A stretch of 64,000 nt of DNA. It comes from Gordonibacter sp. An230. Lineage in GTDB: Bacteria > Actinomycetota > Coriobacteriia > Coriobacteriales > Eggerthellaceae. The translations under genes and the position numbers were made by a program. The notes beneath the pieces are model-generated. The model did not search any database, was not told the DNA's origin, and saw nothing but the letters and a program-made list of their open reading frames with translations. Positions 13,923 through 26,278 of the stretch are shown here, piece after piece. Location of the stretch: NCBI RefSeq assembly GCF_002159915.1, contig NZ_NFJP01000004.1:62001-126000 (forward strand), written 5' to 3'. Positions within the stretch are counted from its first letter, which is position 1, and each line of letters starts with the position of its first letter.

Positions 13923-14372
13923 TCAAAGACCCACACCGCTGCTTCCGAAGCCCCCAGATCCTCGATCAGTGTCAGGGAGTTCGTCGACCGCCTCGAAAGA
14001 CAACGGCGGCACCGGCATAATCACAAGCTGGGCGATGCGATCTCCCCGCTTCACAAAGAACTCCTCATGTGGATCGAGATTCACGAGCACGGCGCATATT
14101 TCGCCGCGATAGTCACTGTCTATGAGGCCGGGAGCGTTCACCAGCGAGACACCGTGCTTGACGGCGAGACCGCTGCGCGGAAGCACGAAGCCGGCGTACC
14201 CCCGCGGCAGGGCAAGAGCCACGCCACACGGAACGAGCCTGCGTTCAAACGGCCGCAGCACCTCATCGCGCGTTGATCGCAGATCGACCCCGGCGTCGCC
14301 CGCATAGGCGTAAGTCGGGAGAGGCAGGTCAGGGTCGAGGGCGCGAAGCGGCACACGTACCGGCGTCGTCAT
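13923..14372 (-). CDS. dut: dUTP diphosphatase
   Basis: A 149-residue trimeric dUTPase that hydrolyses dUTP to dUMP and pyrophosphate. All five motifs are visible in order: AGDAGVDL, PRSGLA, NAPGLIDSDYRGE, GDRIAQLVI and the C-terminal P-loop-like RGSGGFGSSG that closes the active site. ATG 14372 overlaps the nrdR stop, so the pair is translationally coupled; both serve nucleotide pool control. Length and motifs are standard. Confidence 0.97.
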   Translation of the reverse strand: MTTPVRVPLRALDPDLPLPTYAYAGDAGVDLRSTRDEVLRPFERRLVPCGVALALPRGYAGFVLPRSGLAVKHGVSLVNAPGLIDSDYRGEICAVLVNLDPHEEFFVKRGDRIAQLVIMPVPPLSFEAVDELPDTDRGSGGFGSSGVGL

Positions 14373-14815
14373 CGCAGCCCCTCGAGCGCCGCGGCAAATT
14401 CCTCGACGTTCTGGAAATCCTTGTACACGCTTGCGAAACGGACATAGGCCACGTCATCGAGCTTAGCGAGCCTCACAAGCGCCATGTCGCCAAGTTCCTT
14501 CGACCCGATCTCCGTCTTAGACGCATTGCGAAGCTCGGACTCGATGCTGTCGATGAGCGCCCCGATCTGCTCAGGTGAGATTGGACGCTTCGCGCACGCC
14601 ATCAGAAGCCCGCGCATCAGCTTCTGCCGATCATACGCCTCGGACGACCCATCCCGTTTGATCACGATGAGAGGATTCTCACCCAAGCGCTCATACGTGG
14701 TGAAGCGCCTTCCGCATTCAAGGCACTCTCGTCGGCGGCGAATAGCCGTACCGTCTTCGGAAGGACGGGAGTCCACGACCTTGGAATCGGGATTCCCGCA
14801 GGAGGGGCAGCGCAT
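14369..14815 (-). CDS. nrdR: Transcriptional repressor NrdR
   Basis: A 148-residue repressor of ribonucleotide reductase genes. The N-terminal zinc ribbon has CPSCG and CLECG (residues 3-34), followed by the ATP-cone (residues ~48-138, starting PLIVIKRDG). Binding of ATP or dATP controls its oligomeric state and DNA binding. ATG 14815 has the site AAGGAG. A sequence like an NrdR box lies 37 bases upstream. It is coupled to dut, and next to lexA as in other actinobacteria. Confidence 0.97.
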   Translation of the reverse strand: MRCPSCGNPDSKVVDSRPSEDGTAIRRRRECLECGRRFTTYERLGENPLIVIKRDGSSEAYDRQKLMRGLLMACAKRPISPEQIGALIDSIESELRNASKTEIGSKELGDMALVRLAKLDDVAYVRFASVYKDFQNVEEFAAALEGLR

Positions 14816-14851: not shown

Positions 14852-14867
14852 TACAAGATATTGTGGT
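14852..14867. promoter_or_regulatory. Candidate NrdR box upstream of nrdR
   Basis: On the minus strand ACCACAATATCTTGTA is close to the known palindromic consensus (ACACWATATATWGTGT-like). NrdR sites normally come in pairs; I see only one. If real, nrdR-dut would be autoregulated. Confidence 0.4.
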
Positions 14868-15206: not shown

Positions 15207-15524
15207 TCAAAAAGTCGCAATGATAGCGACTAGCGATGACGCGGCGCAAACTCCGCCGACCACCACAGCCTGCCAGGGCTCGACGAATCCGTACGCCGCG
15301 CCCCGTGCGCTGCCGTCGCGCAGGGCGCGAACCATTTCGGTTTCGCACAGAAGACCCCGTATGCGCCTTAACGACCCGGCCAAACGATGCGATTCGCAAG
15401 CGATGCCCTGTGCACGCCAGCCGGGAAACGCGACAACGGCCCCTGTTCGCGGAGAAAACCCGAGGGTTTCCGACTTCAAAGCAGACGAACTCCAGGCAAA
15501 GCACCTCTCCTCGAAATTCTTCAT
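15207..15524 (-). CDS. Small tail-anchored membrane protein, divergent from lexA and LexA-controlled
   Basis: A 105-residue protein. Residues 1-80 are basic and Ser/Ala-rich with no recognised domain. Residues ~84-105 form one hydrophobic segment ending at the C-terminus, which fits a tail anchor. ATG 15524 follows the purine-rich site AGAGGAAAGAGGGAG. A near-perfect promoter (TTGACA, 17 bases, TATTAT) lies upstream with a LexA box in its spacer, and a terminator follows. SOS-induced division inhibitors sit at this place in other Gram-positives (YneA, DivS, ChiZ/Rv2719c), so a division-arrest role is likely but inferred. No LysM domain is present, unlike YneA. Confidence 0.72.
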   Translation of the reverse strand: MKNFEERCFAWSSSALKSETLGFSPRTGAVVAFPGWRAQGIACESHRLAGSLRRIRGLLCETEMVRALRDGSARGAAYGFVEPWQAVVVGGVCAASSLVAIIATF

Positions 15525-15542
15525 TTTTCTCCCTCTTTCCTC

Positions 15543-15618
15543 TTGCGTAGAACCTTTGTTCGCATATATAATAGAACGAACAAAAGTTCATGTCAATACA
15601 AATCGATACATTTGTTCG
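15543..15618. promoter_or_regulatory. Divergent SOS promoter region with three LexA boxes
   Basis: Three sites resemble the Gram-positive SOS box CGAAC-N4-GTTCG: 15549-15562 (AGAACCTTTGTTCG), 15577-15590 (CGAACAAAAGTTCA) and 15605-15618 (GATACATTTGTTCG, weaker). The first lies in the spacer of the lexA promoter (TTGCGT 15543-15548, TATAAT 15567-15572). The second lies in the spacer of the divergent promoter (TTGACA at 15591-15596 and TATTAT at 15568-15573, minus strand). LexA should repress both genes. Confidence 0.88.
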
Positions 15619-15638: not shown

Positions 15639-16277
15639 ATGTCCGAGAAAGTGACGAAACGACAGCAGGCCGTGCTTGACTGCATCGAGGAGTGCATTCG
15701 GGAAAAGGGCTATGGTCCGACGGTGCGCGAAGTCTGCCAAACCCTGGGCCTCTCCTCCCCTTCAACGGTGCATGTGCATCTCAAAGCCCTCGAACAGAAG
15801 GGGCTCATCAAGCGTGATCCTCTCAAGTCGCGCTCCATTGCGCTCACCTACCCTCTTGAAGATGCGGCGCTTGCCACAAACGTAGTGCAACCAAGCTTCA
15901 ACAAGATCGTGAACGTGCCGCTCGTGGGCAATGTGGCAGCTGGATCCCCTATCCTTGCCGAGGAGAACATCACCGACACGATATCGCTTCCCACCGACAT
16001 CGTGGGCGACTCCCCTTCGTTTTTGCTCTCCGTACGTGGCGAAAGCATGATCGAAGCGGGCATCAACGATGGGGACTATGTCGTGGTGAAAGAGCAGCCG
16101 GTGGCGAACAACGGGGACATCGTCGTGGCTATCATAGACGATGGAGCGACGGTCAAGCGTTTCTACAAGGAAAGCGACCATATTCGCCTTCAGCCCGAGA
16201 ACTCCTCCATGGAGCCCATCATCACAACGGACTGCTCCATCGCAGGAAAGGTGGTCGCAGTTTTCCGCCGTCTGTAG
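15639..16277 (+). CDS. lexA: SOS repressor LexA
   Basis: A 212-residue repressor. The N-terminal winged HTH is residues 1-70 (GYGPTVREVCQTLGLSSPSTVHVHL) and the C-terminal S24 peptidase domain is residues ~88-212. The self-cleavage bond is Ala101-Gly102, the nucleophile Ser136 (GESM) and the general base Lys173 (TVKRF). Activated RecA stimulates self-cleavage and induces the SOS genes; recA in this window carries a matching box. ATG 15639 is preceded by AAAGGACGGGG. Three LexA boxes upstream show autoregulation. Confidence 0.98.
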   Translation: MSEKVTKRQQAVLDCIEECIREKGYGPTVREVCQTLGLSSPSTVHVHLKALEQKGLIKRDPLKSRSIALTYPLEDAALATNVVQPSFNKIVNVPLVGNVAAGSPILAEENITDTISLPTDIVGDSPSFLLSVRGESMIEAGINDGDYVVVKEQPVANNGDIVVAIIDDGATVKRFYKESDHIRLQPENSSMEPIITTDCSIAGKVVAVFRRL

Positions 16278-25133: not shown

Positions 25134-26192
25134 CTACTTCTTCTTCGCAGGTTTGGCCACCGGCGAGAACGAGTCGGCCTCCTCCGCTGCGCGCGCGACA
25201 ATGGGGATGTCGAACGCCTCCCGCACCTTCGCCTCAAGCTCCTCCCGCAGATCAGGATTCTCCCTGAGCGTCTGCTTGGCGGCCTCGCGACCTTGACCGA
25301 GGCGCTCCTCGCCATAGGTGTACCACGCCCCCGACTTCTTGGCGACGCCCGCCTCCACAGCCATGTCGACGATGCACCCTTCGCGCGAGATGCCCTCGCC
25401 ATACATGAGGTCGAACTCGGCTTGTCGGAACGGAGGGGCCACTTTGTTCTTCACCACTTTGGCGCGAACGCGGTTGCCCACGATCTCACCGTCTTTCTTG
25501 ATGGAGTCAATCCGGCGGATGTCGATGCGCACGCTCGAGAAGAACTTGAGCGCACGACCGCCCGTCGTGGTCTCCGGGTTGCCGAACATCACGCCGATCT
25601 TCTCGCGCAGCTGGTTGATGAAGATGCACGTGGTGTTCGACTTCGAAAGCGACCCTGCCAGCTTGCGCAGCGCTTGCGACATGAGGCGCGCCTGCAGGCC
25701 CACCGTCGTGTCGCCGATCTCGCCTTCGATCTCGGCACGCGGCACAAGCGCGGCCACCGAGTCGACGACAACCGCGTCGATGGCCCCCGAGCGTACGAGC
25801 ATATCGCATATCTCGAGCGCCTGTTCTCCGGTGTCGGGCTGCGAGATGAGCACTTCGTCGATATCCACCCCCAAACGCGCGGCGTACACGGGGTCGAGCG
25901 CGTGCTCGGCGTCGATGAAGGCAACGATGCCCCCCATGGCCTGCGCCTCGGCAAGTATCTGCAAGGCGAGCGTCGTCTTGCCGCTCGACTCCGGCCCGTA
26001 CACCTCAACAATGCGCCCGCGCGGCACGCCACCGATGCCGAGGGCGGCGTCGAGCGGCAAAGAACCAGTGGGGATGACGCCTATGTTGAGATCTTGCCCG
26101 CCCTCGCCAAACTTCATGATGGAGCCTTTGCCGAATTTCGTCTCGATCTGATCGGTGGTCAGCTTGAGCATCTTCGATTTCTCTTCGTTCAT
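25134..26192 (-). CDS. recA: Recombinase RecA
   Basis: A 352-residue ATP-dependent strand-exchange protein and LexA co-protease. Walker A is GPESSGKTT (residues ~65-73), and the L2 region and INQLREKIG are present. The C-terminus is basic (KPAKKK), unlike the acidic tail of E. coli RecA. ATG 26192 follows AGAAGGAAG; an upstream in-frame start at 26252 would place the coding region over the SOS promoter. Expression is under a LexA box at 26257-26270. Confidence 0.99.
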
Positions 26193-26250: not shown

Positions 26251-26278
26251 ATTATACGAACGTATGTTTGTTAGTCAA
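26251..26278 (-). promoter_or_regulatory. recA promoter with LexA box
   Basis: On the minus strand TTGACT (26273-26278), a 16-base spacer and TATAAT (26251-26256). The spacer is almost filled by the SOS box CAAACATACGTTCG (26257-26270). This is the same design as at lexA. Confidence 0.9.

Follow-up and report, generated by a model that had tools for sequence, protein, structure and literature searches.

Among the SOS division inhibitors described so far, YneA of Bacillus subtilis and ChiZ (Rv2719c) of Mycobacterium are encoded next to lexA, are SOS-controlled and possess one membrane helix, properties which they share with the product of a small gene located opposite lexA in Eggerthellaceae, for which SOS control is predicted. 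The helix of YneA is reported to bind TM7 of FtsW and to be necessary and sufficient for midcell localisation, while a YneA deprived of LysM still localises and fails to inhibit division, for which LysM is required (PMC13396833). How FtsW is blocked is stated as unresolved in the Discussion of that 2026 paper, in which ChiZ, SosA and SidA are also predicted, with low confidence, to bind TM7 of FtsW, SidA on the side opposite to that bound by YneA (PMC13396833). According to a review, the LysM of ChiZ is seemingly not needed (PMC3989709). In Mycobacterium, Rv2719c-nrdR-Rv2717c is reported as a single LexA-controlled operon (PMC4181829), and the order lexA, inhibitor, nrdR is the one found in Eggerthellaceae. 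Compared to YneA and ChiZ, however, the small protein has neither LysM nor an ectodomain, its helix is placed at the C-terminus, and it contains a conserved cytoplasmic N-terminal part.

Inhibitors without LysM are also described. SosA of Staphylococcus resembles the small protein in being divergent from lexA, LexA-controlled and small, with one helix and no LysM, but its helix is located at residues 10-30 and is followed by a required extracellular C-terminal part that has no equivalent in the small protein; SosA lacking 30 or 40 C-terminal residues was inactive (PMC6851548). DivS of Corynebacterium glutamicum is, by description, SOS-induced, encoded near lexA and devoid of LysM (PMC3989709, PMC6851548), but differs by its predicted extracellular C-terminus (PMC6851548). 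SidA of Caulobacter is reported as an SOS-induced inner membrane protein of 29 amino acids interacting with FtsW (PMC4211646). It is closest in size to the forms of 23 to 38 residues presented below; the likeness is one of size and regulation, and Caulobacter belongs to another phylum. TisB and DinQ are, in the available descriptions, likewise SOS-regulated single-helix peptides. They are membrane toxins accompanied by antisense RNAs and are not known to be encoded beside lexA. No description of an SOS checkpoint protein from Eggerthellaceae was found in listings of the open-licence PubMed Central literature; the gene analysed here would provide these common gut bacteria with theirs.

The gene opposite lexA and its control region

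The window, that is the whole stretch of 64,000 nucleotides that was analysed, contains a gene of 105 codons with an ATG start on the minus strand, flanked by nrdR and lexA (Table 1). In a preliminary description of this DNA, the reading frame had been presented together with a promoter containing a LexA box in its spacer, a strong ribosome-binding site and a terminator. The reading frame is real and divergent from lexA, and a ribosome-binding site-like match to AGGAGG (five of six positions) precedes it. The terminator was not recovered: a scan of the region gave none, and the 97 nt past the stop codon fold like shuffled sequences (z -0.15). By eye, one can discern a CCTTCTC/GAGAAGG repeat that has a long loop and is accompanied by a T run.

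The promoter TTGACA-N17-TATTAT, with 11 of 12 matches, is the sole promoter-like site that a scan gave between positions 14800 and 15700, for which shuffling gave a mean of 0.5. Its spacer does contain a LexA-type box (box 1), as described before, and a second strict box that had been missed (box 2) is located past the -10 element. Both follow the pattern GAACN4GTTC and lie 28 bp apart. Box 2 is found between TTGCGT (15543-15548) and TATAAT (15567-15572) of the likely lexA promoter. The -10 elements of the two promoters overlap, and each spacer holds one box. Two strict boxes at a spacing of 28 bp are present at 74 of 97 distinct Eggerthellaceae loci; TTGACA occurs together with TATTAT at 51 of these 74, and a third box of the GAACN4GTT type at 50 (with a spacing of 28 bp in 21 and of 29 bp in 29). 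Genome-wide, the bare GAACN4GTTC pattern is not enriched, with 55 sites versus 85 for the reversed pattern, and it is therefore their position and their conservation, and not their number, that speak for LexA boxes.

Upstream of nrdR, the sequence ACAAGATATTGTGG was observed at window positions 14853-14866, which resembles an NrdR box. This resemblance suggests that nrdR may also be under the control of its own, autoregulated promoter.

Table 1. Location of the small gene, its control elements and other features in the window
Feature	Position	Strand	Basis or remark
Promoter of the small gene, TTGACA-N17-TATTAT	15568-15596	-	Promoter scan; TTGACA exact in 65 of 74 and TA...T in 71 of 74 aligned loci
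LexA-type box 1, GAACAAAAGTTC	15578-15589	.	Between the -35 and -10 elements of TTGACA-N17-TATTAT
LexA-type box 2, GAACCTTTGTTC	15550-15561	.	Past the small gene's -10, between TTGCGT and TATAAT of the likely lexA promoter
Degenerate third box, ATACATTTGTTC	15606-15617	.	On the lexA side, at a further 28 bp
Likely lexA promoter, TTGCGT-N18-TATAAT	15543-15572	+	Sequence; TATAAT here in 58 of 74 loci
Candidate SOS division inhibitor gene, 105 codons	15207-15524 (stop codon included)	-	Conserved divergent ORF, purifying selection
Coding part for the C-terminal helix predicted to span the membrane (83-104) and for the last residue	15210-15278	-	AlphaFold2, hydropathy
lexA	15639-16277	+	TIGR00498 (E 4.9e-68), PF01726, PF00717
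nrdR, downstream neighbour	14369-14815	-	Named by eye from sequence; order kept in relatives
recA	25386-26174	-	PF00154

As stated in the preliminary description, the 105-residue protein has a single hydrophobic segment at its very C-terminus and no LysM. AlphaFold2 predicts a helix at residues 83-104, with block-mean pLDDT values of 88, 97 and 96 over residues 81-105; the model as a whole reaches a mean pLDDT of 69.8 and a pTM of 0.33, the chain outside the helix being poorly determined. Searches of Pfam and NCBIfam (E up to 10) as well as of PHROGs and PADLOC (E up to 1) gave no match to this protein, and LysM was matched in none of 54 scanned family members. Two LysM proteins were found in the window's genome, encoded on contigs C73 and C2, while lexA is on C34. 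Most members share the motif MKNFExxYPV-[DE]GTSALKP, followed by IIxFP and, directly before the helix, by L-R-x-G-[ST]-x-x-G. Within GTSAL, conservation over 72 rows is 94% for G, 100% for A and 90% for L. The part preceding the helix carries a net positive charge in 59 of 72 members, and charged residues after the helix are lacking in 72 of 72. By the positive-inside rule, which relates charge to membrane topology, this charge distribution suggests that the protein is oriented N-in/C-out.

Conservation, selection and reduced forms

In total, 110 Eggerthellaceae loci were collected, drawn from the best 80 loci of a LexA scan and from loci of further genomes of the family. Merging identical loci and requiring at least 300 bp upstream left 97 distinct ones, among which near-copies remain; L033, with 34 bp upstream, was dropped. 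A strict distal box is carried by 92 of them. Outside the 92 are L029, L065, L066, L074 and L207, where no strict box falls within the range considered; an ORF bearing the motif is still present at L029. ORFs were picked by a rule that was set after the first loci had been inspected: a start located between 15 and 45 nt beyond the distal box, a hydropathy of at least 1.8 over 18 residues, not more than seven residues after the helix, and a length of at least 20 residues. Applying this rule, a divergent ORF ending 0-7 residues past a membrane helix (84 of 84 picks) and having its start 17-40 nt beyond that box was found at 84 of the 92 loci, compared to 16 of 4600 first-order Markov shuffles. 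A stricter count, demanding an ATG start and a gap of 20-27 nt, gave 80 of 92 loci versus 1 of 4600 shuffles. One pick of 41 residues, at L192, is probably wrong, the profile described below giving a stretch of 109 codons there. Any charged residue within the last 18 residues is present in only three of the 84 ORFs.

At eight of the 92 boxed loci the small gene was not found, and nrdR starts 126-235 bp from lexA. At these loci, L052, L061, L063, L064, L067, L078, L132 and L190, lexA and nrdR face each other and a LexA-type box is kept. They are regarded as independent losses of the presumed inhibitor, and their existence indicates that some lineages can dispense with the small gene.

A profile of 54 members (A1), which had been built from lexA neighbours, produced 61 matches in 60 of 79 genomes of the family; lexA was found in 76. 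The preliminary description had proposed to check if the gene is always divergent from lexA in relatives, and all 61 matches are divergent, at a distance of 104-357 bp. The outcome named there as refuting, a lack of any homologue or conserved frame opposite lexA in relatives, did not occur. Re-finding lexA neighbours with this profile is expected, and the informative result is that no match occurred elsewhere. The 16 lexA-bearing genomes without a profile match include G007 and G100, which belong to a genus with the 23-residue form, a form invisible to the profile. When the single sequence was used to search 60 relatives, E values below 0.001 were obtained in seven genomes only, each match adjoining lexA. 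Matches at E 0.0029-10 in 35 further genomes were mostly short and out of place, and were not counted.

For the analysis of selection, 32 pairs were chosen by hand, four of which were saturated. Ka/Ks was 0.00-0.54 in all 28 unsaturated pairs. Pooled over the 13 pairs, likewise hand-picked, that were taken for regional values, it was 0.32 for the first 36 residues, 0.50 for the middle and 0.24 for the last 40 residues. Because of the shuffle control, purifying selection and conserved synteny (61 of 61), the small gene is real, conserved and under purifying selection.

The size of the gene varies considerably. Eight of the 84 ORFs consist of only 23 codons, for example MARYEFPIAFALSTIASFVIFFA; seven of these loci are from Adlercreutzia and one is from Enterorhabdus. 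Seven more loci of the Adlercreutzia genus were inspected, and the 23-residue form is present in six, the seventh having 34 bp upstream only. Among the eight distinct DNA versions of the 23-residue forms, variation affects 20 of the 22 third codon positions, together with 12 first positions and 5 second ones, with a mean pS of 0.58, a mean pN of 0.16 and a Ka/Ks of 0.16; L023 and L027 are separated by nine synonymous changes and no others. In the distant family f13, all seven loci (nine genomes) contain an ORF of 36-38 residues consisting of a basic part plus helix, with uncertain start codons, and comparison of L228 and L230 revealed 22 synonymous versus two other changes. Three of the seven f13 loci are without any box, even when the relaxed pattern is allowed, and LexA control is less clear in this family. 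Short ORFs were also detected at the same place at one f11 locus (36 residues) and at one f14 locus (29 residues). In Adlercreutzia, only a helix of 23 residues, itself under selection, is left of the gene product, and in f13 about 37 residues are left.

LysM-bearing counterparts outside the family

The 63 lexA loci analysed outside the family (L136-L184, L193-L206) include 42 with a divergent ORF specifying a helix followed by a LysM-like motif; judged by eye, the divergent ORF of L183 looks like this arrangement. The Pfam LysM model matched all three motif-positive ORFs that were scanned (E 1.3e-10 to 2.8e-7), and gave no match to the degenerate L204. In three families of the same order, f4, f10 and f2, a protein with helix and LysM is encoded at the same place opposite lexA. 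We believe f4 and f10 to be Atopobiaceae and Coriobacteriaceae. In proteins of these two families, the motif [DG]G[TNS]xALxx...FxVIEGG precedes the helix and LysM follows it, the N-terminal motif being shared with Eggerthellaceae; in f2, LysM is present and no clear N-terminal motif was seen. When the parts preceding the helix were compared by hhalign between Eggerthellaceae and 15 LysM proteins of f2, f4 and f10, a probability of 90 and a score of 31.5 were obtained, covering 18 N-terminal columns only. The best of 200 column shuffles scored 11.3 and the reversed control 9.0. The N parts of 27 outgroup LysM proteins are different, and profile comparison with those of Eggerthellaceae gave no match.

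The preliminary description had assigned to the small protein an architecture different from that of the known inhibitors. This holds with regard to the missing LysM in Eggerthellaceae, but not for the locus in the order as a whole, since f4, f10 and f2 carry helix and LysM at the same place. As the helix-LysM proteins of f4 and f10 share place and N-terminal motif with it, the small protein of Eggerthellaceae looks like an orthologue that lost LysM, and not like an unrelated inhibitor. A LysM remnant was not detectable after the 84 Eggerthellaceae stop codons, three matches at E 2.4 to 6.2 being obtained with a model built from the 42 loci that double as its positive control, and the absence of LysM is therefore not due to a frameshift.

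Loss of LysM probably occurred more than once. Both available genomes of genus g62 within f4 (L150, L238) encode the motif and a terminal helix without LysM, the frame running straight on to nrdR. LysM is present at 10 of 12 f4 loci in the LexA tree, and g62 has lost it separately from Eggerthellaceae. In this tree, Eggerthellaceae form a clade (100/100), as do f2, f4 and f10 together (98/98). Over the 118 rows that were classified, LysM presence switches four times or more, with labels assigned partly by hand, a recount made without L206, L207 and L192, and L203 (contig end) and L208 (partial lexA) left unclassified. Helix-only forms are also found in f3, f5, f6, f8 and f9. One clade of all helix-only forms is absent from the LexA tree, yet such a clade is not rejected (AU p 0.348). 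The core finding, a LysM-less orthologue with a natural series leading down to a bare helix, is considered sound at the level of sequence comparison.

The divergent ORFs of L178 (f16) and L199 (f7) specify a helix with only about 21 residues behind it. They could possibly represent a halfway stage of LysM loss.

Possible function and alternative explanations

Several broad features of SOS division inhibitors are apparent from the sequence: a small gene divergent from lexA, LexA-type boxes over its promoter, and a product with a single membrane helix. Together with the link to LysM-bearing forms, selection, topology and the published findings on helices and FtsW, position and regulation make a LexA-controlled, membrane-anchored SOS division inhibitor the best reading of the small gene. 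That its product is the Eggerthellaceae orthologue of the lexA-divergent inhibitors of the YneA/ChiZ type, with a cytoplasmic N part and a C-terminal helix, is given a probability of roughly 0.6. Upon DNA damage, RecA would be activated, LexA would cleave itself, and the small protein would then be made and inserted N-in/C-out. Docked by its helix on FtsW, the septal peptidoglycan synthase, and the partners of FtsW, the protein would delay septation until the DNA has been repaired. Lacking an ectodomain, it could exert this block only through its helix within the membrane, as with the 29-residue SidA. In full-length forms, the conserved cytoplasmic GTSAL...IIxFP segment could perhaps aid the block, and the N part would be a dispensable accessory.

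A more far-reaching proposal, which we regard as tentative and somewhat more doubtful than not, is that the SOS inhibitors of Coriobacteriia were repeatedly whittled down to a nearly bare helix, blocking FtsW purely inside the membrane and without any wall-binding part. If true, docking would be separated from inhibition, contradicting for this lineage the result that the helix of YneA only localises. Forms that discarded LysM and kept LexA boxes and purifying selection would constitute natural experiments on which part inhibits. The helix-only forms would provide a test of the YneA model, in which the helix docks and LysM inhibits, and, should they work, they would be among the smallest genetically encoded FtsW inhibitors.

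The main rival to a division inhibitor is a protein that still docks without LysM and does something milder. As a relic of divisome docking, it would reach the septum by its helix, would not block synthesis and would act via its cytoplasmic part, for example by recruiting or titrating a partner or by mildly tuning FtsW. Because YneA without LysM localises without inhibiting (PMC13396833), loss of LysM could mean loss of the inhibitory step, and conservation of the cytoplasmic GTSAL...IIxFP segment (Ka/Ks 0.32; G 94% and A 100% of 72 rows) is consistent with a function on this side of the membrane. However, this part is discarded in the 23-residue forms, which are those under the strongest selection, and the gene stays under LexA boxes; we consider such a relic unlikely. 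A membrane toxin of the TisB/DinQ kind, induced by SOS, depolarising the membrane and slowing growth without being a divisome inhibitor, would agree with the forms of 23 to 38 residues, SOS-controlled single-helix peptides of similar size being described in E. coli. This explanation appears quite improbable in view of the fixed place opposite lexA, as with division inhibitors, the extended cytoplasmic part that most members conserve, the nearly charge-free helix (3 of 84 with any charge in the last 18 residues) and the probable homology to LysM forms.

It is also conceivable that the ORF is a leader coupling expression of nrdR or lexA to SOS, the peptide itself being of little importance. At the 55 loci with both located, the distance from the stop codon to nrdR downstream is 54-391 bp, and the operon reported in Mycobacterium (PMC4181829) would suit this explanation, but all 28 unsaturated pairs have Ka/Ks values far below 1, with the strongest selection in the helix, which is hard to reconcile with it. 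Moreover, eight loci have lost the gene and yet keep lexA and nrdR in place, leaving a leader function very improbable. Overlapping ORFs are present on both strands in the window, as would be expected if the small gene were a chance ORF in G+C-rich DNA; the shuffle control, purifying selection and synteny mentioned above refute this in effect, and its probability is negligible.

LexA-type boxes elsewhere in the genome

Twelve other box regions were read in the genome to which the window belongs, and only one of them, L215, precedes a convincing SOS gene. Its strict box, GAACGGATGTTC at position 2001, is located 55 nt ahead of a gene read as uvrB. The other regions are within genes or ahead of implausible ORFs. 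In the window, the recA promoter TTGACT-N16-TATAAT contains a relaxed box, AAACATACGTTC, in its spacer (26258-26269, plus strand), which is the same layout as that of the small gene's promoter. L210 and L211, on different contigs, have the same box GAACAAATGTTC at position 2001, in L211 as its reverse complement. In both, an ORF of 120 codons with an implausible protein sequence lies 77 nt behind the box, and the two ORFs are nearly identical. The two regions are probably copies of a repeated element bearing a LexA-like box.
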